From assembly GCA_029881035.1 (NCBI GenBank), contig JAOUNI010000006.1, forward strand, positions 1 to 64,000: a stretch of DNA of 64,000 bases, written 5' to 3'. The translations under genes were made by a program, and so were the position numbers. Below the pieces are notes generated by a model. It was not told the DNA's origin. It saw nothing but the letters and a program-made list of their open reading frames with translations, and searched no databases. The stretch is from Gammaproteobacteria bacterium (GTDB taxonomy: Bacteria > Pseudomonadota > Gammaproteobacteria > SZUA-229). Positions 49,941 to 64,000 of this stretch are shown here, in pieces; position 1 is the first letter of the stretch; each line of letters opens with the position of its first letter.

Positions 49941-50750
49941 ATGTCATTTGATTTCACAAAAAACGATCTTGAACATTTGCAGAATATTGTTAAGCAGGCA
50001 GCGATAGAAGAATTGTTACCGGGTTTTGGTAAGCGCGAATTTACCTATAAAGATGATGACAGTATTATCACCAGTGCTGATCTGGCCATGCAAAAGAGAA
50101 TGGATGCAGAGCTCAAGCAGGCCTGGCCACAATTTTTATTATTGGGTGAAGAGATGGCGGACGAAGAACAGCAGGCTATCATCGACAGTGGTGATACTTA
50201 CTGGTGTCTTGATCCGTTGGATGGTACTAATAATTACGCAGCGGGATTGCCAATGTTTGCCGTTTCCATTGCGCTGATACAGAATGGAGAATCAGTGCTG
50301 GGTTTAATTTACGATCCGACACGTGATGAGATGTTCAGTGCTATAAAAGGCGCTGGAGCCTTTCTCAATGGCGAAAAATTAAAGGTAATGACTAGCACAA
50401 ATCATGCGCAGCGCATTGTTGCCGAAATAGAAATGAAACGGTTGCCTAAAGAATTAGCGGTACGATTGATAATGGAACAACCTCATGGTTCACAACGTAA
50501 CTCAGGCTCCTCAGCCATAGATTGGTGCTGGCTATCAGCCGGTCGTTATGACCTGTATTTACATGGTGGTCAGAAGCTCTGGGATTACGCTGCTGGTCAT
50601 CTTATTTTTTCCGAAGTTGGAGGGAAATCCGTTTCGCTGGACGGTCAGCCTGTATTCAGAGGCCGACTTGAAACACGTTCGGTATTCGCCGCTCAAGACG
50701 CAGCTTTATTCGATGACTGGTATAAGTGGATTGGTGTGCCTTATAGTTAA
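49941..50750 (+). CDS. Inositol monophosphatase family protein
   Basis: 269 residues with the metal-binding motifs LGEEMAD (Glu), LDPLDGTNNYAAG and the later LWDYAAGHLIFSEVGGK, all typical of Mg2+-dependent inositol monophosphatase/CysQ-type enzymes. The substrate could be inositol phosphate, a sugar phosphate or PAP. The stop overlaps the stop of the convergent DUF3570 gene, so the two transcripts overlap and no terminator is visible. Confidence 0.9.
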   Translation: MSFDFTKNDLEHLQNIVKQAAIEELLPGFGKREFTYKDDDSIITSADLAMQKRMDAELKQAWPQFLLLGEEMADEEQQAIIDSGDTYWCLDPLDGTNNYAAGLPMFAVSIALIQNGESVLGLIYDPTRDEMFSAIKGAGAFLNGEKLKVMTSTNHAQRIVAEIEMKRLPKELAVRLIMEQPHGSQRNSGSSAIDWCWLSAGRYDLYLHGGQKLWDYAAGHLIFSEVGGKSVSLDGQPVFRGRLETRSVFAAQDAALFDDWYKWIGVPYS

Positions 50751-51892
50751 AACCAAAGTGATAAATAGAAACGAATAACGTTGGCGGAAAACTTGTATGC
50801 TGGTTCTGTGCCTGGTGTTATGCCAGTTACAGTTGTGTCTAGAAAGTCATCATAGTTGTATGAAAATCGATCTAGATAAAAATTGAGAGTGCCTTTTTCA
50901 AAAAAAGATAATTTTTCTTTTTTGATAGAGTAGGTGGCACCAGCGCTAATAGCGTTACTGGAGAATGTGCTGAGTTCCTTATCACTGGCAAGGTAGTTTT
51001 GTGCATCAACAAACGGAAATAGACTGGAGAAGAATGAAGCCCTTGTTTGCGAATAGAACCTAAGGCTTACATCGAAAATCCAGTTATTCTGATATGGGTG
51101 AACATAACCAATATCAAAAGTGTCAGCTTCAATATCCCATGTGTCTGTGAAATACCGGTAGCCACCATAAACTGCAGCACGATATGGGAGATAGTATCGA
51201 AAATTAATTGATGTTGCATTGCTGGTGCGTGTTTTGGGGTATTTTTCATCCTGGAAGATGGTTGCATTTGGGTCGGACGGACTTATATATCTGACCTGTC
51301 GATAAGGGTTGTTTAAAAAACCCTCATCAGTAATTACTTCATAAGTTAATCCCATCAGAAAATTTTTAGTAAAAACTTGTGAAAGTGATAGTCGATAGTC
51401 TTTGGTGTCCGCGTTTTGGCTGAAAATGTTATCAGTGCTTTTACTGATGTGATTATTACCCGCTGAGTAACCAAGTGATATTGTCGATAGACCTCCAAAT
51501 GTTTCCTGGCTAATATTGAAGCTATGAGTGACTGCCTCAAAATCATTTTCAGTGCTGTTAGTATATGAATAACTCATGATTGATTTGTCGTAAAGATAAT
51601 CAATGCTTATGGATTTTTGTGTGCGCTTCTCATTATAGGAACTCGCCTGAGTGATAGCATCTATGGATGCACTGGAGATGCTATCAATGTAATAATTGGC
51701 GGAGATAGATGTGGTGTTGCCAATGCTTTTTCTGACTAATACAGATGGACCATCAATGGTTATACCACCGCCATCGTAGTTATGGTAGAGGACATCTATG
51801 CGGTCTTCAGCCAGTACAGCAGCATGGCTCTGATTGTTAATAATCACGTATAGTGCAACTAATGCTATAGTTGATTTTTTAATTACAGCCAC
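50747..51892 (-). CDS. DUF3570 outer-membrane beta-barrel protein
   Basis: About 381 residues: signal peptide (VIKKSTIALVALYVI... ending near SHA), then EDRIDVLYHNYDGGG and IDGPSVLVRKS, the strongly conserved DUF3570 start, and further family blocks such as FLNNPYRQVRY and YRYFTDTW. The C-terminus FYLSLWF is a barrel-insertion signature. Probable outer-membrane protein. The start is GTG 51892 (or GTG 51898), inside the last codons of the DUF4266 gene, with AGG eight bases upstream: strong translational coupling. The family is repeatedly found next to DUF4266, TlpA-like and ApbE genes, to my knowledge without assigned function. Confidence 0.88.
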   Translation of the reverse strand: MAVIKKSTIALVALYVIINNQSHAAVLAEDRIDVLYHNYDGGGITIDGPSVLVRKSIGNTTSISANYYIDSISSASIDAITQASSYNEKRTQKSISIDYLYDKSIMSYSYTNSTENDFEAVTHSFNISQETFGGLSTISLGYSAGNNHISKSTDNIFSQNADTKDYRLSLSQVFTKNFLMGLTYEVITDEGFLNNPYRQVRYISPSDPNATIFQDEKYPKTRTSNATSINFRYYLPYRAAVYGGYRYFTDTWDIEADTFDIGYVHPYQNNWIFDVSLRFYSQTRASFFSSLFPFVDAQNYLASDKELSTFSSNAISAGATYSIKKEKLSFFEKGTLNFYLDRFSYNYDDFLDTTVTGITPGTEPAYKFSANVIRFYLSLWF

Positions 51893-52097
51893 AGCCACCG
51901 CCTGAAGAAATACCAGCACCACGAGCACCCTCACGCGTATCATGAACATGTTCAATATAAGCGGATGATACTGGATCACGGTCGAATGACATGATTGGGT
52001 CGGCAAGATGGGCGCGTTCATAGGGTTTAACCCATGGCTCGGCCGAACATCCAGAATTTACGATTATAAAAAAAAATAGAAATAAACTCCGTTTCAT
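51879..52097 (-). CDS. DUF4266 lipoprotein with C-terminal Gly-Cys tail
   Basis: A 72-residue lipoprotein from ATG 52097. The signal ends NSGC, so the mature protein is a lipid-anchored peptide of about 55 residues: EPWVKPYERAHLADPIM, then a polar stretch ending GGGCGCN at the very C-terminus. The Gly-rich tail with Cys-X-Cys is the hallmark of DUF4266 and suggests a metal site, redox pair or modification site. It starts two bases after the tlpA-like stop and overlaps the DUF3570 start by 14 bases, so the three are one translational unit. Confidence 0.85.
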   Translation of the reverse strand: MKRSLFLFFFIIVNSGCSAEPWVKPYERAHLADPIMSFDRDPVSSAYIEHVHDTREGARGAGISSGGGCGCN

Positions 52098-52099
52098 GA

Positions 52100-52612
52100 T
52101 TATTCTCGAATTAACTCCTTCACCCATTTTTTATATTTTTCGATATCATCTGGTTTGTAGGCTCGATGTATATATCGTATATGACCGCTGCGAGAAACTA
52201 ATACGCTAGTTGGCATTGCAGTGACTTCGTATAACTGACTGACTTTGTTTTCTGAATCGAACAAAATAGGGAAATTTATTTTATCGTCTTTTATGATTTT
52301 TAAAGCCTCAGTAGGATTTTCTTCTACGTTGACACCCATGATGGTAAAACCAAGATCTTTATATTTGGCATAGAGCTTATTAAGTTCGGGCATTTCCTGG
52401 CGGCATGGGCCGCACCATGATGCCCAAAAATTGATTAACACCACCTGGCCTCGTAACTCACTAAGTTTAATGTTTTTTGTATTATTACTTTTCAAGGTGA
52501 AATTAGGTGCTTCGACAGAAGTTTCATTGGCCGATGAATTGGCACTGACTAAAGTAAATAAAATGAAAAGTATGGCGCTCAGGGAGTGGAAAGTTATTTT
52601 ATTAATATACAT
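52100..52612 (-). CDS. TlpA-family thioredoxin-like protein
   Basis: 170 residues: an N-terminal signal or anchor (hydrophobic ILFILFTLV), then a TlpA/ResA-type thioredoxin fold with WCGPC in NFWASWCGPCRQEMP and cis-Pro in TAMPTSVLV. It should act in the periplasm as a thiol reductase. In this operon its likely clients are haem-binding cysteines of the cytochromes or the Cys-X-Cys tail of the adjacent DUF4266 lipoprotein (inference). Confidence 0.9.
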   Translation of the reverse strand: MYINKITFHSLSAILFILFTLVSANSSANETSVEAPNFTLKSNNTKNIKLSELRGQVVLINFWASWCGPCRQEMPELNKLYAKYKDLGFTIMGVNVEENPTEALKIIKDDKINFPILFDSENKVSQLYEVTAMPTSVLVSRSGHIRYIHRAYKPDDIEKYKKWVKELIRE

Positions 52613-52628
52613 TGTTCATAGCCTCTCA

Positions 52629-53285
52629 TTAAAAATAGTATCCGACGCCTACAGTAAACTTAAGATTGTGGGTTGATTTTTCCTTGAATATATCAACATT
52701 AAAGATATTATCTCGGAAGTCGGTATAAACTGCAAAATAGTTGCTTACTAAAACTCTATAACCAGCACCTACGCTGAGTGTGAAATGATCACTGCCCGCA
52801 AATGAAGTATTACCTAAGCCTGCGGTGATATATAAAGAAGTGTTGTAGGTCAGATTATCAGTAACGAATGCCTCACCAGGTAAAGCGTTATAGCCTAGCG
52901 ATATAAGATACGTGGTCATCTCTCGCTCATTATTTGAAAGTAGCGGTGCGCCACCAAGAACTACTTCAAAGCTGGTTTCATCTCCAGTTGCCTGAAACCA
53001 TCCTACACCAACAAAAAAATCATCAGAGATGTGATAATTTATATTTAGTTCAAGCGCTGGATTGCTGCCAAAATCCTCAATACTAATAATGCCTATATTG
53101 GAAATTATTTCGAAATCTGCCGTTTTTATATTTGACTCATCAAATTTGGTGCGTTTTATTTCTGGTTGTATTATGGGGTATAGCTCTTTTACCTCCTCAA
53201 TTTCAATGCCACAGGAAAAGGTGGGTAAAAAAAATAATGTGCTGATAATTATATTCAGAAGAAGATGGCGAAACCTGCTTTCCAT
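52629..53285 (-). CDS. Small outer-membrane beta-barrel protein
   Basis: 218 residues. Signal peptide near the N-terminus (LLLNIIISTLFFLPTFS), a short linker, then alternating beta strands (ISDDFFVGVGWFQATG, FTLSVGAGYRVLVSNYFAVYTDFRD) ending FTVGVGYYF. It resembles the outer-membrane beta-barrel family described first from myxobacteria and similar groups. Overlaps the upstream SH3-barrel gene by 31 bases, so it is in the same operon. Confidence 0.75.
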   Translation of the reverse strand: MESRFRHLLLNIIISTLFFLPTFSCGIEIEEVKELYPIIQPEIKRTKFDESNIKTADFEIISNIGIISIEDFGSNPALELNINYHISDDFFVGVGWFQATGDETSFEVVLGGAPLLSNNEREMTTYLISLGYNALPGEAFVTDNLTYNTSLYITAGLGNTSFAGSDHFTLSVGAGYRVLVSNYFAVYTDFRDNIFNVDIFKEKSTHNLKFTVGVGYYF

Positions 53286-54010
53286 TCTTTTAAGTCCTCG
53301 TTGCTATCATAGTCTTTATTGGCAGAAAAAATAACGAAATCGCTATATTCAATTTTAAGTATTATCCGTTTTGATAAGTAAGTCTGTACCCCAAGCCCAA
53401 AATTACCGAACTGATTGCGATTATCTTTTGGTAGCACTAGTGTTGTTTTAGGCGTTGTCTCAATAAAGCCTGTGCCGAGCATAACATAAGGGGAAAATGC
53501 CAGTGTTGGAAATGGCTGCATAATGATTGCTAGTTTATACAAGCTACTACTTGATGTGTTGCCTATTATTTCAGTGTCGCTTAATTCAACAGCAAGGCTT
53601 TTATTGAACAGGTAGGCCGCATATATTGTTAGTGCGTCAGCGCTGCCAAACCTACCTCCTAATAAACCTGCTTCCCAGCGTCTGTCTACGTAATCTTCGT
53701 GACTAAACGTCTGTAATTCAATTTGTTTATGATTGTCGGGTGATAAAGTTTTTGTCATTTGTTCGAGCTTTACCCAGCCTTCGATGCCTTCTTTATTTTT
53801 TATTTTGAACCATGAAGTATGTCGAAAAATAATTTCAATGGTCTCTCCCCGTTCGATAATGTGAAATACTGGATAGCTGTTGCCGTGACCTGTATAAACA
53901 TCAACGTAGGGGTCAGCAACGATGACTTCCTGAAATTGCTCGTTGCTATATACGTTGTTGGAACCGCCTGATAGTAATAACAAGATTATAATTATTTTTT
54001 TTATTAACAT
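53255..54010 (-). CDS. SH3-domain protein with outer-membrane barrel
   Basis: 251 residues: signal peptide, a bacterial SH3-like domain at about residues 28-88 (VDVYTGHGNSYPVFHIIERGETIEII and GWVKLEQM) and a small beta-barrel ending WKAGFAIFF. The SH3 part may bind peptidoglycan or a partner protein, tying the barrel to the cell wall. It is followed by a barrel of similar type, so the two may form a pair in the outer membrane. Confidence 0.78.
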   Translation of the reverse strand: MLIKKIIIILLLLSGGSNNVYSNEQFQEVIVADPYVDVYTGHGNSYPVFHIIERGETIEIIFRHTSWFKIKNKEGIEGWVKLEQMTKTLSPDNHKQIELQTFSHEDYVDRRWEAGLLGGRFGSADALTIYAAYLFNKSLAVELSDTEIIGNTSSSSLYKLAIIMQPFPTLAFSPYVMLGTGFIETTPKTTLVLPKDNRNQFGNFGLGVQTYLSKRIILKIEYSDFVIFSANKDYDSNEDLKEWKAGFAIFF

Positions 54011-54068
54011 TAGGCTTAAATGTGGTTACTAACGTGAGTTTATATGGTCTCTATGTAGCATAGAGTTT

Positions 54069-56798
54069 TTAGTTCATTGGCGCAGTTGGATCAAATGGAT
54101 TGTTAAAATATTGTGCACCTAGATCAAGCCATTCTGATATCAGGCGTAATTCTGCTGGCGTCATGAAACTGGAATGATCAACACCAGGTATAGCAGGTAA
54201 CACGCGGCTAGCATTGAGTTCAGTTTCGGTTAGTTTTTCCATGAAGTAACTGACACGTGCGCCATTGGATGACATCGACGCTGGTACTGCCGCGTTGGGA
54301 TCAGGGATATCTTCTGTGACCGGATTACCGTTAATGTCCAGTACCGGGTCGCCATTGCTATCGAGCACGGGGACTGTAATTAATATATCAACCAGATTAC
54401 CCATGGCGTCAAGCATCTGGCCGGCATCGTCAAATAATAACTCCCGATAGGATTCAATATGATCGACTTCTTCGTCAGAGACGTCGCTCGATAAATTAAG
54501 TTGGCCATCAATAACGCTGTTACTGTGACAGTTTGTACAGGTATTTACTCCACGATCAACACTCCAGAGCGGGTTGATGTGTTCAACATAATTGATGACT
54601 GATCGGCACGTACTGCTCCAGTCAGTGTTACAGGTTAAAGAAGCTGGACTGGCAGTGCTGAGGCCATCAATACCTGTATAGGGATAGCTAAATGAAGCAT
54701 CTGTTTTGATTGCAGGATCACTCCATACATCTTCAAAAATAACATCAACACTAGGAGTTAAAGCAGATGGAACCAGACGGGTTCTGGCTTCTGCCATGGT
54801 TTCACCGATATCAGCAAAGTAGGAGCCAGCGGTGCCTGGAATCTGAGTGTTGGGAAATAAATATCCATCGTTTGGTGCGCCACTATTAATGGATGGATTG
54901 ATGGCGTCATTGCGACCGTGTGGCAGTGGTAGCGTCGTTGTCTGGTGTGTATGACAGCCGTTACAATATAAGGTGTTACCGGGTTTAACCTGTAGCCAAT
55001 TTTCATGGCGTGGTCCTATTCGGCGTGCAAATTTATCTAGAACTTCGATGCTAAATGCGATATCGGCAGGTATTTTTATTCGTACCGAGCCATCAGGTTC
55101 GATGGGGGCGTAGCCTATGATTTCGCGCATGCCCTGATTCGTATTACGACCAAATGCAGTGTTAGCCAGATCGGGAGGATTTAGCAGCCGATCATCATCA
55201 CGTAGTGGTTGTCCTGCGGCCTTGATAATACGTAGAAAGCGTGCAGGACGGTCATCACTGCCAGTTAATCCCGGGTCGCCCAGTTGTTGCACTGAGGTAA
55301 TACCATTAATCGTGGTGCAATCACTAAAAAAACATCCGTTAAAACTATTATCACCAAAATCATATACAGATCGAATATCTAATAATCCGACGTTCTCTGT
55401 TACTAGTGTTGCATCAAGTTCGCCAGAAGTTTTATCGAAAATAACTGTTGGTAATGCACGTGACTGCATAATAACAGCATCTGTAGTAATCATGCCAGCT
55501 TCGGCTAACACGACAGGTTTTTCAGTATTGTTTGAACGGTCATAAATCCAGATGCCATAACTGGGAGGTAGTTCAACGGCAGTGGCATCAGTTAGCCATG
55601 GGTCGATGCAAGGGTGCATCACGGTGGTATCAACTGTCGGTGATACCACCGTGACTTCAAGCTGACAAATGCCTTTGCTAACTAATAATCGGTTAGTACC
55701 ATCATATAGCGGGTAGGCGGAGTGGTAGCGGCCTTCTGGTGAAATGGTATTGTTATTGATGATATTGGTAATGGTGGCATTGGTTTGTGCGGAACCGTTT
55801 AAGAAGCCCTGGTTAGCAATAGTCGGCTGATTAATATCAATAAAATTTTCGGCATCAATGATAACGATGTTACCGCCACCAAATGTATTTGTAAAAGGTT
55901 GACTCATGGCCAGAATGCTACCATCAGCTAACTGATACGGTTGTATAAGTTGAACAGTATTGTTATCGGCATCAAGATGGCTTTCAGTATGCGCCCCGTA
56001 ATAAACCTGCAGGTTAGATCCATCAGGTGAAACTGTGTATAAATGTATAGCGTTATTATTGCCACTGTTGTCCCAGCGACTAAACAGTATTCGACCATCA
56101 CTCAATACGCCAGGGTCAAGATCATGACTTTGATTGAAGGTGATCTGGTGAATGTTATTGCCATCATTGTTCATGACATGCAGCACCAGTGCCTTAGTTT
56201 GTCTATTTTCATCAGTGGTTGAGAACTGAGGTTTGCTGAGGCCAGTCACACCCTCATCAAGAAGAATTGCTTTTGATTGTGTTTGCCTGTCCGATGAAAA
56301 AACAATACGGCCATCGGGCAAGTAGCTGGCAGAGATGTCATTGCCTTCTTCAGCAACAATATTGGATGCTATGATACGTCTTAATTGATGCGTAACAATG
56401 TTGTATTCATAAATGTTCCAGGTAAAGAAAATGTTGTCATTCAGGTCAGGGTCGTCGAGGCGAAGCGAGAACAGAATTTTTTCACCATCATAAGAAACAG
56501 AAATGTCTTTGACATCACCCAGGCCCTTAGTGATAGTCGCGGTGATGTTTCTCTGTGCCGCACTCACCGAAGCACGATCTTTAATATAAACGTCACCGCC
56601 AGGGGTAAATAATAACGGCTCACGGATATCGGGTTGTATTGGCTCACCATTATTGTCTGTAGGAATAACACGTTTAACATAGGCAATGGGGGAATCGGTG
56701 ATCCCTGGATCCGCACCTTCACCTGATGCGGAGCACCCCTGCAATATAAGCATCAGGGTAATCAAAAATGTGGCAGAGGCCTTTTTCATAAGGTTCAT
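54069..56798 (-). CDS. Large beta-propeller lipoprotein with two haem motifs (hydrazine synthase alpha-like)
   Basis: 909 residues. Lipoprotein signal (LILQGC), then propeller-type repeats with PDGRIVFSSDRQ, LSDGRILFSRWD and VSPDGSNLQ (TolB/PD40-like) to about residue 450. A middle region follows (GYAPIEPDGSVRIKIPADIAF), then haem motifs CNGCH near 611-615 and CTNCH near 754-758. The C-terminus MTPAELRLISEWLDLGAQYF is typical of cytochrome-like ends. The order of propeller, middle domain and cytochrome-type domain resembles the hydrazine-synthase alpha-subunit family (HzsA-related), but no other anammox gene is present, so the reaction is surely different. Start is ATG 56798 or 56789. Confidence 0.78.
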   Translation of the reverse strand: MNLMKKASATFLITLMLILQGCSASGEGADPGITDSPIAYVKRVIPTDNNGEPIQPDIREPLLFTPGGDVYIKDRASVSAAQRNITATITKGLGDVKDISVSYDGEKILFSLRLDDPDLNDNIFFTWNIYEYNIVTHQLRRIIASNIVAEEGNDISASYLPDGRIVFSSDRQTQSKAILLDEGVTGLSKPQFSTTDENRQTKALVLHVMNNDGNNIHQITFNQSHDLDPGVLSDGRILFSRWDNSGNNNAIHLYTVSPDGSNLQVYYGAHTESHLDADNNTVQLIQPYQLADGSILAMSQPFTNTFGGGNIVIIDAENFIDINQPTIANQGFLNGSAQTNATITNIINNNTISPEGRYHSAYPLYDGTNRLLVSKGICQLEVTVVSPTVDTTVMHPCIDPWLTDATAVELPPSYGIWIYDRSNNTEKPVVLAEAGMITTDAVIMQSRALPTVIFDKTSGELDATLVTENVGLLDIRSVYDFGDNSFNGCFFSDCTTINGITSVQQLGDPGLTGSDDRPARFLRIIKAAGQPLRDDDRLLNPPDLANTAFGRNTNQGMREIIGYAPIEPDGSVRIKIPADIAFSIEVLDKFARRIGPRHENWLQVKPGNTLYCNGCHTHQTTTLPLPHGRNDAINPSINSGAPNDGYLFPNTQIPGTAGSYFADIGETMAEARTRLVPSALTPSVDVIFEDVWSDPAIKTDASFSYPYTGIDGLSTASPASLTCNTDWSSTCRSVINYVEHINPLWSVDRGVNTCTNCHSNSVIDGQLNLSSDVSDEEVDHIESYRELLFDDAGQMLDAMGNLVDILITVPVLDSNGDPVLDINGNPVTEDIPDPNAAVPASMSSNGARVSYFMEKLTETELNASRVLPAIPGVDHSSFMTPAELRLISEWLDLGAQYFNNPFDPTAPMN

Positions 56799-56852
56799 AG
56801 TTGTTTAAAAAATTGTAAGGGCGCTCTGTTTTTTATGCATGGCTAAATATGT

Positions 56853-57872
56853 TTAATGTTGCTGAGCAGATTGTGGTTCTGCAGGGGGCGTCAAGCCTGA
56901 TGAATAATGCATTTTCCCTTTATCATCAATAATGATGGCATCAACACCCTGGTAAGACTCAATGAACTCAATGGCTTTTTGAGCACCTAGAATAAATAAA
57001 GTTGTCGATAACGCGTCGGTAGTAATGGCATCATCGCCGATAACGGTCGCACTCCACGTATTTGTGATCGATGTTCCAGTTTTTGGATTGATGATGTGGT
57101 GATAACGTTGGCTGCCTTCAATGAAAAAACGCTCATAATCACCAGAAGTTGATATGGCTGAATTGTCTAATGGTAAGCGGACAACAACCTTGTCTTTGTC
57201 TCGGGGATGACGTACGCCTATCACCCATGGTTTGCCATTGCGATCTCCCATGACTCGCGAGTCACCGCCTGCACCGACCAGGCCATTTTTAATGCCGCAT
57301 GTTTGTAACAACTTAATGGCATTGTCAACTGCGTAACCTTTGGCAATACCACCAAAATCCAGCCGCACATTTTTTTGTTTGAATTTTATGGTTTTATTTT
57401 GCGGGTCTAATTGAATATGCCGGTAATTAATACCGCTCAACTTATCTTCAATATTTTTTTTGGTTGGGCGAGTTTTATTGTGATAATCATAAAGATAACC
57501 AACCGAGGCGAAGGTGATGTCAAAAGCACCTTCAGAGGCTTCTGACATTTCCAGTGATTTCTCGATTAAATAAAAAATCTCATTGCTGATTTTTACTTCG
57601 TGGTCTGCCGCGTTGTTATTAATATTAGATAAATCACTGTCGTCGTTTAATGGATTCATTGACCGGTCGATACGCTGCATTTCATCAAACACCTGTTGGC
57701 CGCATAGTGCGGCCACTTTCGGGTCATCATGCCAGATGTCGACAGTGATCAGCGTACCCATCATGATACGCTCACTTTTATACCATTCCGACCATGCATT
57801 GGTGCTGGCACCTAATGTTACAAACATAAGTGCCAATACTAAATAGTGATACAAAATAATTCTCTCATTCAT
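56853..57872 (-). CDS. apbE: FAD:protein FMN transferase (ApbE)
   Basis: ApbE attaches FMN covalently to Thr/Ser of exported proteins. 339 residues: an N-terminal export segment, MMGTLITVDIWH, LDFGGIAKGYAVD, VGAGGDSRVMG and the metal-binding end DAITTDALSTTLF. All recognised motifs are intact. It sits in the middle of the redox operon. The target protein is not evident: no neighbour has a perfect [ST]GA[ST]x[ST] flavinylation motif. Confidence 0.94.
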   Translation of the reverse strand: MNERIILYHYLVLALMFVTLGASTNAWSEWYKSERIMMGTLITVDIWHDDPKVAALCGQQVFDEMQRIDRSMNPLNDDSDLSNINNNAADHEVKISNEIFYLIEKSLEMSEASEGAFDITFASVGYLYDYHNKTRPTKKNIEDKLSGINYRHIQLDPQNKTIKFKQKNVRLDFGGIAKGYAVDNAIKLLQTCGIKNGLVGAGGDSRVMGDRNGKPWVIGVRHPRDKDKVVVRLPLDNSAISTSGDYERFFIEGSQRYHHIINPKTGTSITNTWSATVIGDDAITTDALSTTLFILGAQKAIEFIESYQGVDAIIIDDKGKMHYSSGLTPPAEPQSAQQH

Positions 57873-57910
57873 TTAATTTGTAATAATATTTTCTGGATAT
57901 AACAGAGTAG

Positions 57911-59536
57911 TTAAAATGCCCCAAATGAAATCATGTTGTCGATGTTGCCAAGGCCATGATTTGGGAACAGTGTGGTGAATTGACCCAGGTCACCGTTGAT
58001 GGACATGAAGTTGGCGATGACGGTATTAACCAGCAAATTCACATTATTTGCCGCCGGGCTGGATGAGGTTATCACTGAGCCATCAGCAGAAAAGCGGCCT
58101 ATTTGATGGTAATCAATAAGCCCGGTATTGGCGTAAGTGCTAATGCTGCTGTTAGGTTTGATGACCAGATAAAATGAACAGGCGGTGGATGAATTATCAC
58201 TAGTCCACTGGCCTTTGCCGCGACCGCCCAGTTCGTTCGATCCTACTGCGGAACTATTGTCGAGTGCGCCATTACTGGAAAGTGAGCCATCGCTGAAGAC
58301 ATAAATCATGAGTGGTTTATTTCTTATTAATGCGTACTGCAGGCAGGCACCGATACATCGACCGGCACGTAAATCCCGGTTTTCTCCGGTCTGGCGGTCA
58401 CCGGTATGGTAATCGTAGCCACCCATAGTAATCGAACCAGCTCCAGCATGGCCGTCAATCACCATTTTCATAACTGAAGCAGTTTTTCGGAATTCACTAT
58501 CATTATCAAATTCGGTAGTACTAAAGATTCCGGTAGCACCACGTATAGCTGCATCCTTTTCAGGGTTGACATCAACACCGGCAAAACGATCAGCAATGTC
58601 AGCCGCTTTCAGGTAACCGCAACGCATCAGGTCTTTGATGATGTCATCTTGAGTAATATTTATTCCTGGTGTGACACTACCAAGGCTGAGTTTTTTGTGG
58701 CTGATGCGGGCTATCGATTCCATGACTGCTGTGACATCAGCGGGATCACTCAATACTGCCGTCAGGTCACCAGTATCCACCATACCAGTGACGTCACTGG
58801 GGCGATCTACTTTTGTGGGTCTTATCTCTGGGTTGATCAGACTGGCAGGTGACATTGAATTACCGCCCGAGTCAGAACTTTGAGAACCGATAAGCGTCAC
58901 CACACCGCCCTGGGCACCGGCTTTAGCGATACCATACATAGGATTGTGTGGATTATTGCCGGTATCGTTATCAGAACGTGCGGCAATGACGGCACCATCC
59001 ACCAGTCCTGGAGCGACTGAAGTAAATTTATCCAGAATGCCTTTTAACATGGCACTGTCTGAATGAAAGCGCAGACCCAACTGGCTATTAGTAAAGTTAC
59101 CATCACTACCATTCAGCATAGTGGCAGCTACAGTAGTATCGGCAAGCCCTGGGATCATATCACCCGGCAGCCCCATCTTGCTGTAACCACTGGTGTCGAG
59201 AAAATCCATCTGTCCGCCACTCTGGCCAACGAGTACGTTGGAACTGGCGAGATTGGCGCCACCAGCAAGGTCAAAACAGATAAATGGAATCTTACCCGGG
59301 CCCGACAATCCACCTAGTGAGCAGCCAATATCAGTGGCCAGTGCATCAAGGTCAGCAGATACAGCAGCATAGGCGGTGTGGGGGTTGGAGAACAAACTAA
59401 AAACACCGCCACCAATAATGGCTCCAGTGCCTGTTATAAAACCCTGCCGCAAAAAATCTCGTCGTGATAGCGGGGCCGAATGATCACGATGACGTAACGG
59501 TTCATTGATAGTGAGGGGGCTGGGTTTTTTAGTCAT
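57911..59536 (-). CDS. Tat-exported DUF1501 family protein
   Basis: 541 residues. The N-terminus carries a Tat signal with LSRRDFLRQGF, so it is exported folded, probably with a cofactor or metal. DUF1501 proteins resemble alkaline-phosphatase/sulfatase-like folds and usually pair with a cytochrome-like partner such as DUF1800. Here they are replaced by LamG and haem-motif proteins. Motifs such as DGHAGAGSITMGGYDYHTG and ENRDLRAGRCIG suggest metal ligands (His, Asp). Substrate unknown. Confidence 0.8.
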   Translation of the reverse strand: MTKKPSPLTINEPLRHRDHSAPLSRRDFLRQGFITGTGAIIGGGVFSLFSNPHTAYAAVSADLDALATDIGCSLGGLSGPGKIPFICFDLAGGANLASSNVLVGQSGGQMDFLDTSGYSKMGLPGDMIPGLADTTVAATMLNGSDGNFTNSQLGLRFHSDSAMLKGILDKFTSVAPGLVDGAVIAARSDNDTGNNPHNPMYGIAKAGAQGGVVTLIGSQSSDSGGNSMSPASLINPEIRPTKVDRPSDVTGMVDTGDLTAVLSDPADVTAVMESIARISHKKLSLGSVTPGINITQDDIIKDLMRCGYLKAADIADRFAGVDVNPEKDAAIRGATGIFSTTEFDNDSEFRKTASVMKMVIDGHAGAGSITMGGYDYHTGDRQTGENRDLRAGRCIGACLQYALIRNKPLMIYVFSDGSLSSNGALDNSSAVGSNELGGRGKGQWTSDNSSTACSFYLVIKPNSSISTYANTGLIDYHQIGRFSADGSVITSSSPAANNVNLLVNTVIANFMSINGDLGQFTTLFPNHGLGNIDNMISFGAF

Positions 59537-59568
59537 AGTGATTATTACCTTTTATAGAGCGGTGATGC

Positions 59569-62163
59569 TCACTGGATAAGCATGCTGGCACTACCCAGAA
59601 TGGCTGCGCAACTTGCTTTAACTATTTCTTCTGTACGTGTTGTTGTGTCACAAGTGGGTGATGGTGAGATTGTGCATTGCGTCATGCTGGTGATCAGGCT
59701 TTCAAAATCATCACCTGTCAATACGACATCAAGATTCTGAGTGGTACTGGCGCCGAGCATATCTCGAATGACTGTTTCGTCAGGCTGAGTTTGTAAATTG
59801 TTGGTCGCATTGTTGATATCAACATTCATAATCGCTGTTAATAACGGATTCATAATGGCGGCTTTTTTTGCCGGGCTATCAAAAGCTGTACTAGCTGTAC
59901 TAAAAGTAAAACCAGAAAAATAACCTGGATTGGTATTAACCAGAACGTTGCAGTAGCTCATTGCCAGTTGTGCGATAGCCATCTGGTGTGAGGCCAGAAA
60001 GGTACTGATATTTTCAACAACGGGTAATTGCTGACGATAAGTATTGTAAGTCGTACTGACTGTAGTTTCGGTCGTCGGTACGCCCGTCACCGCTGACATA
60101 GTAGCATTAATTTCTTCAAACGTTCGTAGTCCAATATCAGAAACAGGTTCAGCATCATCGGCTGCAGAAGGTGCTATCGGCAGAGCTTCGATAAATGGAT
60201 TGTTATTGCTTCCCAGCACCTCAAATGTCAGAAAGAACTCATCTGAACCGGAACCTTTTTCCAGTGGAATGATGGTGCCCTGAGTCGATAAAAATTGACC
60301 GTTGTTGGTGAAGTCATATCCGGACGAGCTATTGACAGAAGTATCTATGTTAGCAAAAGCCTGTCCTGCAGCAGCTTCTCTGCCATTGATGGCAATGCGC
60401 ATACCTTTAATGATAATAGGTGAGTTTGGTAGCCAGTCTGGATTGAGGTTAATGAATCGCGGTTCATTAAACAGGTAGGCATAGTTATCATATTGTTCGA
60501 CGTGAAATAATATATAGCTATCGGGTATGCCAATACGATCTGCTATGGAGAACAGCATAAAATATTTTTTACCAACACCCACTGAAAAATTTTGATTGAT
60601 TTGCGTTTGGGTTAAAGCTCGATTGTGGATAGCCACCAGTCTGATTTTTCCTTTCCACAGAGCACCGCCACTGGGTTCGTCACCTAAAACAAATGCAAAG
60701 GAACTGTCCCAGTCAGTCAAATTGCTGCCGCTGCTGCTGGTATCAACGTCATCGGTGAATATGCCATTAACAAAAATTTGCCGACCATTAACAGGGTCAT
60801 AATTCATCACCACATGTTGTTGTGAAGCCTGTAAATCTTCATCGGCATCTGCAGTGGATAGTGCGGGTAGACCATTGGCATTCGATGCGTTAGTACGGTT
60901 TAAAAATGCGTAGTTATATAAGTTTTGTGCCACGGTGAAATTACGTGCGCTACCACCAGCAGAATAAGTAATGATGGATGTATCTTTTTGCGATACATTG
61001 CCGGGGACTAGCCAGCTTTCTATAGAATATTCACCTGTGGCTTTAATCAGATCGTGCAGTTTTTTACTGTTTGCGGTTGAGCCCTGAGCTTTGCCATTGA
61101 TAATTTCAATGCCATCACCCAGTACCCAGTCGACGGCTCCTGAAAATGTCAGGTTAAGCGCAGGTTCTACACCACTGGTATCAAAGGTCTGTGTGCCACT
61201 ACCGGTTTTGAATTCCCATAGAGCAATGGTATTGGTTTCGTATCGGCTGCCACCGCTGGCGATAGTAGCGTCATTCAAGGTGACAGCTTTGCTGGTGATG
61301 AGTGAAGCGTCAACCTGTGTGAGAGTGATGGCACTGGACAGGAGATTGATTTGATCTTCAATTTCCTGAGCATCACTCAGGCAGTTGGCGCTCCAGCAAT
61401 TATGGAATTCTTCACGTAAACGAATCACTAATCGTGAGTCAGCAGGGGAATCAAGGTTTATTTTTGCTTTGGCCGCCTCATAGGCGCTGTTGACGTCATT
61501 GCTGGAAAAAAATGGAGAGATTGGAGTTGCCGATATTTCAGTATGACATTCTGCACAATGTTGTGTGAGTAGAGGGTAAAGTATTTTTTCAAAACTATTT
61601 GGATCATTGTCCTGTGCGGTCGTTGGGAAGTTTCTACTAGCACCAGGATTCTTGATGGCAGGCGCGGTTAAAACAATTTGTCGACCGGTAGCGTTTGGTT
61701 CGCCTCCTTTCCATGTGGCTATATAACCTTCGATAATATCAGCGCAGGCACCATTGTCCGGCAACCAGCAATTATGGCCACCAGCCACTTTTGTGACCAT
61801 CAGTGAGTTGGCGTAATTATCCAGATTAATATGTTTAATTGCTTCCAGGTAAGCGGTATTAACGTTACTTTTATGTACAAAAGATGATGGAGCACTACCG
61901 CCTTCAATGTGACACCCACCACAGCGATCGTCTCGACTTAGATTGTCCCAAAAATTTAATTTGAATGCTTGAATGTCCGATGTGGCCGGCGCCGGCCCAG
62001 TGTAATTGATGACGGTATTATCTACTGGAGGAATGCTGGTTTGTGTTGATGCACTATCACCACAGGCAGATAGTGTTAACGTGGTAATAATCGTAAAAAC
62101 ACCAATGATGCCAGTATTTTTATAAGCGGCTAGTTTCACTACTTTTCCAGAAAGTAAATACAT
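59569..62163 (-). CDS. Lipoprotein with two haem motifs and a LamG-like domain
   Basis: 864 residues. Lipoprotein signal (LTLSAC) and haem motifs CGGCH near residue 80 and CAECH near 204 within planctomycete-type cytochrome segments. A LamG/concanavalin-like domain lies at about 305-525 (IALWEFKTGSGTQTFDTSG, YSIESWLVPGN, LWKGKIRLVAIHNRAL), followed by a long C-terminal region of unknown fold. The lectin-like domain suggests binding to a polymer or surface. The ATG follows the previous stop directly (TAGATG), so translation is coupled. LGASTT near residue 805 is the closest match in the operon to an ApbE target motif. Confidence 0.8.
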   Translation of the reverse strand: MYLLSGKVVKLAAYKNTGIIGVFTIITTLTLSACGDSASTQTSIPPVDNTVINYTGPAPATSDIQAFKLNFWDNLSRDDRCGGCHIEGGSAPSSFVHKSNVNTAYLEAIKHINLDNYANSLMVTKVAGGHNCWLPDNGACADIIEGYIATWKGGEPNATGRQIVLTAPAIKNPGASRNFPTTAQDNDPNSFEKILYPLLTQHCAECHTEISATPISPFFSSNDVNSAYEAAKAKINLDSPADSRLVIRLREEFHNCWSANCLSDAQEIEDQINLLSSAITLTQVDASLITSKAVTLNDATIASGGSRYETNTIALWEFKTGSGTQTFDTSGVEPALNLTFSGAVDWVLGDGIEIINGKAQGSTANSKKLHDLIKATGEYSIESWLVPGNVSQKDTSIITYSAGGSARNFTVAQNLYNYAFLNRTNASNANGLPALSTADADEDLQASQQHVVMNYDPVNGRQIFVNGIFTDDVDTSSSGSNLTDWDSSFAFVLGDEPSGGALWKGKIRLVAIHNRALTQTQINQNFSVGVGKKYFMLFSIADRIGIPDSYILFHVEQYDNYAYLFNEPRFINLNPDWLPNSPIIIKGMRIAINGREAAAGQAFANIDTSVNSSSGYDFTNNGQFLSTQGTIIPLEKGSGSDEFFLTFEVLGSNNNPFIEALPIAPSAADDAEPVSDIGLRTFEEINATMSAVTGVPTTETTVSTTYNTYRQQLPVVENISTFLASHQMAIAQLAMSYCNVLVNTNPGYFSGFTFSTASTAFDSPAKKAAIMNPLLTAIMNVDINNATNNLQTQPDETVIRDMLGASTTQNLDVVLTGDDFESLITSMTQCTISPSPTCDTTTRTEEIVKASCAAILGSASMLIQ

Positions 62164-63375
62164 CTAGTTCCCCTTACAATAAGCCGCAGTTTTGGCAAAT
62201 ACGCGTTTCATGTCATAACCATTATTTTCAAAATCATTGGTGATAGCGGTGACCTGGTTGCGATCAGCCGTATAGTTATCGGATTCACGGAAACAGACGG
62301 CCTTGAATACCTTTTTTACCTGACAGCGGCTAAATGCCCGGCTATTGGCCAGTTCTATACCCATTGATTTAGCACCATTGCCAAAGCTGTGTCCGTTTTC
62401 ATCCAGCACGGTTGTGCTGTCCCATCCCAGTAACTGGTTTTGACCGTTACGCCAGTAGTTTAGCCAACTGTCATCAGTGGTGACGTGGCCGTATTTGAAA
62501 TTATTACCATTGATGTTGAATTTATCAGTCACCACACCGGGGGTATAATCAAGCTGTTGAGTGTCATTGTTAAAATTGTAATATGCATAGGCACCGTAGA
62601 GCGCATCCATACCTGCGTGGCAGCCAATACAGTTATTCATGAAGATACGACTATCACCACCCGGGCTGCGCGAAACATCTCTATGTATATGATCTGGGAC
62701 ACGGCTAATGTCCTTGATTTGTTCCAGATCGGTACACAGGTGGTTGATCAGGGTAAAGCGGAACATCGCGCGGTTGGTTCCATCGACAAAAAATGCAGCT
62801 GCAGCGGCTCGGCTGGTGATAACACCAGCTGTAGCGGCTGTTGCTAGCCCTGTCACATTGCTTTGTATCTTTTTTTGCAGCACGGTGGGATCAGAAAAAT
62901 CACTGCCAGCCGCTTCGAGTGCTTCATAGTGATCGTTATTATTATTTGAGTAGGCTGGACTGACGCTGCCCGTGTAAATAATGTCGCCTGATAAAACCTG
63001 TCGGAAATCAACACTGTCTCTAATCATACCAATGACTGTTGCAGTGTAGTCATTTAGCGGCACAAATACGGATTGCTCTTCATTGGTCCAGGGGGCGGCG
63101 AAATTTTTCAGTGTGACATTGTAAAAAGCCGCGTTATTCATCGCTTCGTAAGCAGCCGTTTCGCCACTAGGGTCATTGATGATCATAGCTTCCATAGTAT
63201 CCAGAATGGTATTACTCGGGGAGATGCCCGTCAGTCGATCATGAATACGTTTAGCTTGTTGACGTTCGAGTGTGCCAGCATGCACTGTCGCACTGCTAAC
63301 AATCACAAATAAGGTGAATGATGAAATAGCATTTAGCCAGGACAAGACATATTTGGAGTTTTGGATGGATATCAT
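62164..63375 (-). CDS. Exported protein with one haem motif, first gene of the redox operon
   Basis: 403 residues. Signal peptide ending near VHAG, then a mostly helical region, one haem motif CIGCH near residue 250 followed by AGMD, and further cysteines near the end (SRCQVKKVFKAVC, AAYCKG). The segment around NNCIGCHAGMDALYGAYAYYNF resembles the DUF1588-like cytochrome proteins that accompany DUF1501 genes elsewhere. It probably supplies or receives electrons. No close ribosome-binding site is visible at the ATG. Confidence 0.75.
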   Translation of the reverse strand: MISIQNSKYVLSWLNAISSFTLFVIVSSATVHAGTLERQQAKRIHDRLTGISPSNTILDTMEAMIINDPSGETAAYEAMNNAAFYNVTLKNFAAPWTNEEQSVFVPLNDYTATVIGMIRDSVDFRQVLSGDIIYTGSVSPAYSNNNNDHYEALEAAGSDFSDPTVLQKKIQSNVTGLATAATAGVITSRAAAAAFFVDGTNRAMFRFTLINHLCTDLEQIKDISRVPDHIHRDVSRSPGGDSRIFMNNCIGCHAGMDALYGAYAYYNFNNDTQQLDYTPGVVTDKFNINGNNFKYGHVTTDDSWLNYWRNGQNQLLGWDSTTVLDENGHSFGNGAKSMGIELANSRAFSRCQVKKVFKAVCFRESDNYTADRNQVTAITNDFENNGYDMKRVFAKTAAYCKGN

Positions 63376-63438
63376 TGGGAGTTAATTCTCTATTCCTTGA
63401 TTAATATGGGGATAGTAATCCAGATTGCACGCTTCAAA

Positions 63439-63467
63439 ATGTTAGCACAGGTTTTATTATGTGTTAA
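63439..63467 (-). promoter_or_regulatory. Likely promoter of the redox operon
   Basis: On the minus strand TTAACA (63467-63462) and TAACAT (63444-63439) are 17 bases apart, with TGC directly before the -10, an extended -10 element. Transcription would start near 63432, about 57 bases before the first gene. Confidence 0.55.
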
Positions 63468-63504
63468 TTTTTCCGACAGATTGTTGGTTTTTCGACAAAG
63501 TTGT
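63468..63504. repeat. Tandem direct repeat directly upstream of the operon promoter
   Basis: Two copies of TTTTTC(C)GACA followed by an A-rich position and TTGT, at 63468-63484 and 63488-63504, are spaced by 20 bases, about two helical turns. They lie just beyond the -35 box, where an activator would bind. The 444-base gap 63376-63819 otherwise shows only a TATAAT at 63730-63735 for the plus-strand gene. Confidence 0.5.
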
Positions 63505-63819
63505 ATATTCTGCCGATTAGTGGTCAGAGTAAAGACATGTATATTTTATACAACTAAATCAGTTGGTTATGATTTTATTCGATAAGTTTCAGATACTATA
63601 GATATTTAGGTGAATAGTGAAAGGCTATATCTGGTCAGAAATTTTATTTACATTATCAGTTGAAAAGGTCTTTTGAAAAAAGATTCACTCGATGAGAGTT
63701 TGTTTGGTATACGAGCCTGTGAATGCTTCTATAATGCATGTTTTTAATGGGGTTGTACTTACCTTAGAATTAGCCGCCATTACCTGAGTGATGGACAAAT
63801 GATAAATGGAGTGACGAGA

Positions 63820-64000
63820 ATGAAGTGTCTTGTTAGAACTATCCTGATAATGATTTTTATTGTGATTAATTCGGGATTGCACGCCGAAACACCTCAAAAT
63901 GAGGTGGTGATTGAAAATCAAAGTTTTACTGACAAGGTTAATAATCTCAAAAAACAAGTGCTGGAATTAAACAGGGATCTATTCATTCTGGAAGAAGAGC
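63820..64000 (+). CDS. Uncharacterised exported protein, N-terminal part (cut by window edge)
   Basis: The reading frame is open from ATG 63820 to the window edge, 60 codons. GGAG lies eight bases upstream. It encodes a signal peptide (MKCLVRTILIMIFIVINSG ending near HA) followed by a predicted coiled-coil (VNNLKKQVLELNRDLFILEEE). No family can be named from this fragment. It is divergent from the redox operon. Confidence 0.75.
   Translation, partial: MKCLVRTILIMIFIVINSGLHAETPQNEVVIENQSFTDKVNNLKKQVLELNRDLFILEEE

Follow-up and report, generated by a model that had tools for sequence, protein, structure and literature searches.

The window analysed here, bases 1–64,000 of a 72,579-base contig (JAOUNI010000006.1) from a draft gammaproteobacterial genome of 2.69 Mb, carries a cluster of ten minus-strand genes (50,747–63,375; named g1–g10 from the 5′ end of the cluster). 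These genes appear to encode the outer-membrane and surface part of a proton-driven, gliding-motor-like machine found in many marine gammaproteobacteria. The original prediction, made from the DNA alone, had described them as a single envelope redox operon. The ten open reading frames (ORFs) lie exactly where it had placed them and are separated by gaps of 0, 32, 38, 54, 58 and 16 bp, or overlap by 31 bp (g6/g7) and 28 bp (g8/g9). The cluster does not end at g1, however, as linked genes continue upstream of it: a divergent operon (c1–c9; locus L006) starts at 63,799 on the plus strand (c1, 63,799–64,000 within the window) and, judging by ORFs, domains and synteny, runs past the window edge to contig base 72,579. 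This operon corresponds to the Agl/Glt "core complex" that Luciano et al. described as Group B, a conserved, clustered and apparently functional gene set without an assigned function, carried by Gammaproteobacteria of which most are not known to glide (Luciano et al. 2011, PMC3169522). The Glt core of Gammaproteobacteria has also been termed standalone and proposed to be a basal transport machine (Wartel et al., PMC3858216).

Based on Pfam and NCBIfam models, the contiguous genes c6, c7 and c8 encode one MotA/TolQ-type protein (PF01618, E-value 4.5e-27) and two ExbD-type proteins (3.1e-14 and 1.6e-16, respectively). The aspartate position of the proton pathway holds D in 28/28 readable c8 sequences and N or S in 28/28 readable c7 sequences; therefore, one motor subunit keeps the residue. 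The TonB-like protein c9, cut by the contig end, contains the AgmX/PglI C-terminal domain (NF033768; 63.4 bits, cut-off 40). The remaining products are c1 (187 aa), c2 (626 aa, weak TPR-like matches only), c3 (956 aa, with tetratricopeptide repeats, TPR), c4 (208 aa, TPR, with a lipoprotein-like signal) and c5 (95 aa). A search of a solved-structure library returned nothing more specific than generic TPR matches for c3, and no match for c9.

The gene order g6-g7 ... c2-c3-c4-c5-[c6-c7-c8]-c9 parallels the glt order of Myxococcus xanthus, where the clusters are gltB-gltA-gltC and gltD-gltE-gltF-gltG, plus aglRQS (PMC3169522). Protein sizes are similar as well, with c5 (95 aa) occupying the slot of GltF (89 aa; PMC3169522). 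The locus resembles the Agl/Glt gliding and Nfs sporulation machineries in its motor of one TolQ and two TolR proteins, its TonB-like AgmX/PglI protein and a similar gene order, as well as in its putative TPR transducers and what appears to be a corresponding pair of small outer-membrane barrels. Unlike these machineries, it also includes haem lipoproteins of the HzsA-like and LamG types together with TlpA, DUF4266 and DUF3570 proteins, its hosts are not known gliders, and no GltI or GltJ giant proteins were seen. The genes c1–c9 match the published description of the Group B core (PMC3169522), in which the motor, the GltC/D/E/G-like genes and one additional gene that lacks a myxobacterial homologue lie in one region; in contrast to the standalone description (PMC3858216), the core comes with g7 in 34 of the 51 core-bearing genomes sampled, usually as part of g5–g10.

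Conservation of the cluster and the core operon

Gene neighbourhoods were compared in a set of loci obtained by scanning named genomes for g3 relatives, of which the best 80 of 426 candidates were retained; they come from Gammaproteobacteria such as Microbulbifer, Marinobacter, Aliiglaciecola, Gilvimarinus, Pseudoalteromonas, Ketobacter and many metagenome-assembled genomes (MAGs). The genes of the cluster are conserved together, in line with the original prediction, but as two modules, g1–g3 and g5–g10, accompanied by the Glt core. In all of the 62 named loci that carry both, g1-g2-g3 is divergent from g5–g10, and among the loci with g5 and g7 (n = 57), g10 is present in 56, g6 in 54, g9 in 53 and g8 in 51. 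Core genes fall inside the retrieved stretch in 32 of the 80 loci, many stretches ending before the core. In a second common layout, observed in whole genomes across the class, g1–g3 occupy one strand and g5-g6-g7-g8-g9-g10-(g4)-c1-...-c9 the other, so that g5–g10 lead into c1–c9 in the same direction, mostly with short gaps or overlaps. The third layout is that of the window, with the g1–g4 block collinear with g5–g10 and the core divergent, and it recurs in a locus of the same family (L068). Since other loci keep g1–g3 divergent, the ten-gene collinear operon is a local rearrangement of two modules; a conserved, linked gene set is supported, but the collinearity is lineage-specific. In two loci (L175 and L176), g5–g10 and c1–c9 are present and g1–g3 are absent.

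Co-occurrence was assessed in 204 gammaproteobacterial genomes sampled evenly across the class (completeness at least 90%), where g3 was found in 31 genomes, c3 in 51, g7 in 34 and DUF4266 in 51. All of the 34 genomes with g7 also encode c3, which is found in 17 of the 170 genomes without g7 (Fisher p 2.4e-26). Likewise, c3 accompanies g3 in 29 of 31 genomes (p 4.2e-19) and DUF4266 in 40 of 51 (p 2.1e-22). Among the g7 loci (n = 35), 26 lie within 23 kb of c3, and in the other nine, from draft assemblies, c3 is on another contig.

Several observations weigh against assigning all of these genes to one machine. The homology of g6/g7, c2, c3 and c5 to GltB/A/C/D/F is proposed from family models, gene order and size, and the scores of c9 against the GltG equivalog (48 of 650 bits) and of c4 against the GltE equivalog (35 of 225 bits) are far below the cut-offs. 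The co-occurrence p-values ignore shared ancestry, which inflates them; a single inherited block is nevertheless an insufficient explanation, because the matches span 27 genera for g3 and 42 genera for c3 and come in three layouts. The core lacks g7 in 17 of 51 genomes, and therefore it also works without the g5–g10 module. In six loci (L087, L091, L092, L094, L140 and L143), g1-g2-g3 occurs with neither g5–g10 nor the core nearby, which makes the trio a module in its own right. Finally, the [S/T]GA[S/T] motif recognised by ApbE occurs in none of the ten g proteins or c1–c9, leaving the ApbE protein g4 without an obvious local substrate.

Two further features of the core were noted among the relatives. 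In L172 and L174, c2 and c3 form one long frame (1,415 and 1,353 aa, respectively), which suggests natural fusions of two TPR transducers. One genome (G050; contigs C11, C13, C8 and C7) has five c3 matches, two of them maybe halves of one broken gene, and so carries several Glt-like cores in one organism.

Outer-membrane and surface proteins, and the DUF3570 clade

Most of the family labels in the original prediction (ApbE, HZS_alpha, LamG, TlpA-type, DUF4266 and DUF3570) are borne out by Pfam, whereas DUF1501 is not (no PF07394 match). Its count of five CxxCH motifs in three proteins also agrees with the sequence: g1 has one, g2 two and g5 two. Because all five are invariant in alignments of 15–18 relatives, they are not chance occurrences.

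The g5 gene (54,069–56,798, minus strand) encodes a lipoprotein (LQGC lipobox) with beta-propeller-type repeats (PD40, PF07676, 6.8e-8), an HZS_alpha domain (PF18582, 6e-13) and two haem motifs, both invariant. It matches PDB 5c2v at 5e-15 and is alignable in three stretches to the hydrazine synthase alpha subunit HzsA, whose propeller-type repeat, HZS_alpha middle domain and haem-binding segment align to g5. Unlike HzsA, g5 is a lipoprotein and scores 54.5 of 800 bits, far under the equivalog cut-off, and neither HzsB nor HzsC is encoded among the ten genes or c1–c9; hydrazine synthase was rejected as an identity of g5. In three genomes, a 167–171-aa lipoprotein with a C-x4-CH motif (CSASxCH) is encoded between g5 and g6 (L173:16729-17238, minus strand; L175:3674-4177, plus strand; L176:3295-3810, plus strand). 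These genomes have g5–g7, g10 and the core and lack g1–g3, and the small protein may take the place of a haem partner. In one of them, a gene a few kilobases downstream of the g5–g10/core cluster (L173:1863-5336, minus strand) encodes an exported protein of 1,157 aa in which CxxCH motifs are numerous.

The two genes following g5 encode a pair of outer-membrane barrels. The product of g6 (53,255–54,010, minus strand) has an SH3 domain (PF08239, 2.2e-7) and a barrel scoring 26.8 bits against TIGR04565, below the cut-off, and is the proposed GltB counterpart. The product of g7 (52,629–53,285, minus strand), the proposed GltA counterpart, is a TIGR04565 (OMP_myx_plus) barrel (135.2 bits, cut-off 60), and the model is matched by 15/15 of its relatives. 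An exact 31-bp overlap of the two genes is conserved in 55 of 66 loci. In M. xanthus, the outer-membrane barrels GltB and GltA are paralogues that stabilise each other and bind GltC, a TPR protein (PMC4488436).

Thiol chemistry is represented by g8 and g9. The former (52,100–52,612, minus strand) encodes a TlpA/ResA-like thiol-disulfide oxidoreductase with a WCGPC motif and a TlpA/AhpC-type thioredoxin fold (PF00578, 2.9e-31); against the ResA subfamily model it scores 134 bits, below the cut-off of 170. The latter (51,879–52,127, minus strand) encodes a DUF4266 lipoprotein (PF14086, 6.9e-21), in accordance with the small lipoprotein originally proposed. Its C-terminal GGGCGCN motif is invariant in all of the 40 aligned DUF4266 sequences, and the CXC within this family was already noted in PMC8238504.

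The last gene, g10 (50,747–51,898, minus strand), encodes a DUF3570 protein of 383 aa (PF12094, 3.6e-34). A GTG start at 51,898 (or 51,892) is likelier than the one first given, 52,021, because the longer frame overlaps DUF4266 by 143 bp. The barrel proposed for this protein was recovered with confidence by AlphaFold (predicted local distance difference test, pLDDT, 87.7; predicted template modelling score, pTM, 0.79), and 16 strands were counted. The position of the ApbE motif is at the end of strand 3 of the model; the odd-even loops are the longer ones and, by the loop-length rule, this position is predicted to be on the outer side. Canonical DUF3570 proteins have a long insert at the same position. 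In a fold search, many porin and TonB-receptor barrels tied at Z 16–18 with no specific relative, and a search of the solved-structure library with DUF3570 gave no match.

DUF3570 had been considered a family without assigned function, but canonical members are known to be flavinylated by ApbE at [S/T]GA[S/T] motifs, and clusters of ApbE, DUF3570, thioredoxin-like and DUF4266 genes have been described, 285 with DsbD and 316 without (PMC8238504). The window contains all four of these families together. It might be nothing more than such a flavinylation cluster with incidental neighbours, which we regard as very improbable. In g10, the motif position (residues 75–78) reads SSAS, the glycine being lost, and no [S/T]GA[S/T] occurs anywhere in the protein. 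Among 60 motor-associated DUF3570 sequences, this position reads SSAS in 26, SGAS in 22, SAAS in seven and TSAS in five, so that the glycine is absent in 38/60, whereas it is retained in canonical sequences. A branch with 100% support splits the 38 canonical from the 46 motor-associated sequences in a phylogenetic tree of 84 DUF3570 proteins. Three changes of the glycine are needed on this tree, which omits partial sequences such as that of Aliiglaciecola (SGAS); therefore, the glycine is mostly absent from the motor-associated clade, the Microbulbifer group and a single MAG having either retained or reacquired it. DUF3570 copies of the window type come with g7 and usually with the core, the cluster lacks DsbD (the only DsbD match of the host genome is on contig C37), and contig C22 (G000:C22:32966-33115; L001, L007) carries a separate, canonical cluster of DUF3570, DUF4266 and TlpA genes that retains TGAT and has an ApbE gene of its own. 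In three loci of the window's family (L040, L057 and L058), core genes lie beside a canonical TGAT TlpA-DUF4266-DUF3570 cluster, from which they are separated by genes for a response regulator and a probable sensor kinase.

The electron-transfer or oxidation system of the original prediction is another alternative. According to this explanation, the locus serves mainly cell-surface electron transfer through haem lipoproteins, barrels and a flavin or thiol relay, with the Glt-like genes serving only as its anchor or for its positioning. The invariant CxxCH motifs, the flavinylation of canonical DUF3570 (PMC8238504), the loop lengths that put the motif of the g10 model on the outer side, and the presence of MtrB (6r2q_B) among its matches, unspecific as these are, speak for such a role. 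Against it, each protein carries only one or two haems, the flavin motif has been lost from g10 and from 38/60 relatives, the most constant partner is a motor driven by the proton-motive force (PMF), and the cluster has neither an inner-membrane quinol oxidase nor DsbD. A conserved, functionally linked set of haem, thiol and barrel proteins of the envelope was thus correctly recognised, and the adjacent Agl/Glt-type operon was missed. Because the genes are conserved with this motor and transducer operon, electron transfer is at best one part of the story, and as the main function it is unlikely.

A proposed trans-envelope machine

With this gene content, synteny and co-occurrence, with invariant haem, CXC and Asp residues, and with folds predicted at the confidences given, we consider it rather probable that the whole locus encodes one linked, PMF-driven trans-envelope machine built on an Agl/Glt-type core. 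We infer that the c and g proteins act in one complex, in which force is directed to the surface haem-lectin proteins and the redox components have a role. In the inner membrane, c6 (TolQ-like) with c7 and c8 (ExbD-like) would tap the PMF, and c9 (TonB-like, with the GltG C-terminus) would pass the force on. The TPR proteins c2, c3 and c4, together with c1 and c5, may serve as transducers in the periplasm. In the outer membrane, g6 and g7, a pair of translationally coupled barrels, would form the platform together with g10, the DUF3570 barrel of 16 strands. The putative working parts at the surface would be two haem lipoproteins, g5 with its HzsA-like propeller and g2 with its haem motifs and LamG lectin-like domain, along with their partners g1 and g3. 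Reducing equivalents, probably from the DsbD of the genome, might be brought to the outer-membrane side by g8 (TlpA) and g9 (DUF4266, CXC) and keep cysteines or haem-attachment motifs functional.

As the output of this machine, our tentative first choice is a force-driven movement or presentation of the haem-lectin surface complex on a polymer or surface, since its Glt and Nfs paralogues move slime or spore coat polymer (PMC3858216) and LamG fits polymer contact. A biogenesis or export machine, in which the PMF-driven core and the barrels deliver and fold g2 and g5 onto the surface and TlpA/DUF4266 handle their cysteines, would agree with the invariant cysteines that both lipoproteins have beyond CxxCH, with the thiol proteins encoded between the barrels, and with the combination of TPR proteins and barrels known from assembly systems. 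No assembly chaperone or secretion signature was recognised, however, and the Glt and Nfs relatives move polymers and do not export lipoproteins (PMC3858216). Export is regarded as unlikely, slightly more so than the electron-transfer explanation.

The force-driven machine proposed above may, more speculatively than its suggested output, represent an unrecognised class, in which an Agl/Glt-type proton motor is built with, and possibly gated by, a haem/thiol redox outer-membrane module, is widespread in Gammaproteobacteria and stands near the ancestral function behind the gliding and spore-coat machines. The Agl/Glt core and the DUF3570 chemistry are each already known. In the open-access literature searched, with most subscription papers outside the scope, no report linking the g genes or DUF3570 chemistry to the Glt core was found; the paper found on DUF3570 and DUF4266 mentions neither gliding nor TolQ or ExbB, and further searches on the core yielded only Luciano et al. 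2011. The core has been recognised since 2011 as a conserved machine without an assigned function, in bacteria that are not known gliders. Its outer-membrane and surface partners are given names by the clusters described here, in culturable genera (Microbulbifer, Marinobacter, Aliiglaciecola, Gilvimarinus and Pseudoalteromonas), so that its role can be tested by deleting genes. The clusters also divide DUF3570 into two clades, one with the flavin motif and one that is associated with the motor and mostly lacks it, and they connect the haem lipoproteins of the HzsA-like and LamG types with a motor, not with nitrogen chemistry.

The intergenic region and the g1–g4 block

The intergenic stretch from which g1 and the Glt-like core operon diverge (63,376–63,798) probably holds promoters for both, although its promoter-like matches are weak and not above chance. 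Across the scans for consensus sites, 30 promoter-like sites were found versus 39 expected from shuffles, and 12 terminator-like sites versus 11.6; since neither scan did better than shuffled sequence and both were uninformative, a single transcript is neither backed nor refuted.

The first two genes of the cluster encode haem proteins. The g1 product (62,164–63,375, minus strand) is an exported mono-haem protein of 403 aa of the DUF1588/DUF1585 (PSCyt3/PSD2) kind, with a CxxCH at residue 249 that is invariant in 18 relatives; PSD2 (PF07624) is matched by 13/18 of these (best 2.4e-6), whereas the window protein has no match. The g2 product (59,569–62,163, minus strand) is an 864-aa lipoprotein (LSAC lipobox) with two haem motifs, both invariant, and a LamG lectin-like domain (PF13385, 3.7e-16), which is present in 18/18 relatives.

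The g3 product (57,911–59,536, minus strand), a 541-aa protein with a twin-arginine translocation (Tat) motif (RRDFLRQGF), is the best conserved of the set (58–73% identity over 17 relatives) and has no Pfam or NCBIfam match. Its assignment to DUF1501 was rejected at the level of sequence: PF07394 is matched by 0/17 relatives and nowhere in its own genome, and hhalign against nine true DUF1501 proteins gave 6.5% probability. The structure model of g3 is middling (pLDDT 56). In the VIA search, its top 50 PDB matches consist entirely of alkaline phosphatases, sulfatases and NPP enzymes (Z 10.2–11.7; root-mean-square deviation 4.4 over 243 residues), although Foldseek by itself gave no significant match (best E-value 0.068). 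Thus, g3 is predicted from its model to share the alkaline-phosphatase/sulfatase superfold of DUF1501, not its sequence family. One g3-bearing MAG (L130) is labelled Candidatus Polarisedimenticolaceae (Acidobacteriota). The g1-g2-g3 set is presumably alike in kind to the planctomycete cytochrome and DUF1501 gene pairs. The PSD2/DUF1585 matches of g1 relatives, the haem and LamG parts of g2 and the phosphatase superfold of g3 are shared with these PSCyt/PSD-type pairs, whereas g1 and g3 of the window have no curated match.

The fourth gene, g4 (56,853–57,872, minus strand), encodes an exported ApbE, FAD:protein FMN transferase (PF02424, 1.8e-83, 280.6 bits). It is an optional, mobile part of the cluster, variable in position or absent in the neighbourhoods of relatives. 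A lone SGAT, not conserved, is found in g5 of one relative (L068). RnfG-like and NosR-like FMN proteins are encoded elsewhere in the host genome, and g4 may act on these.

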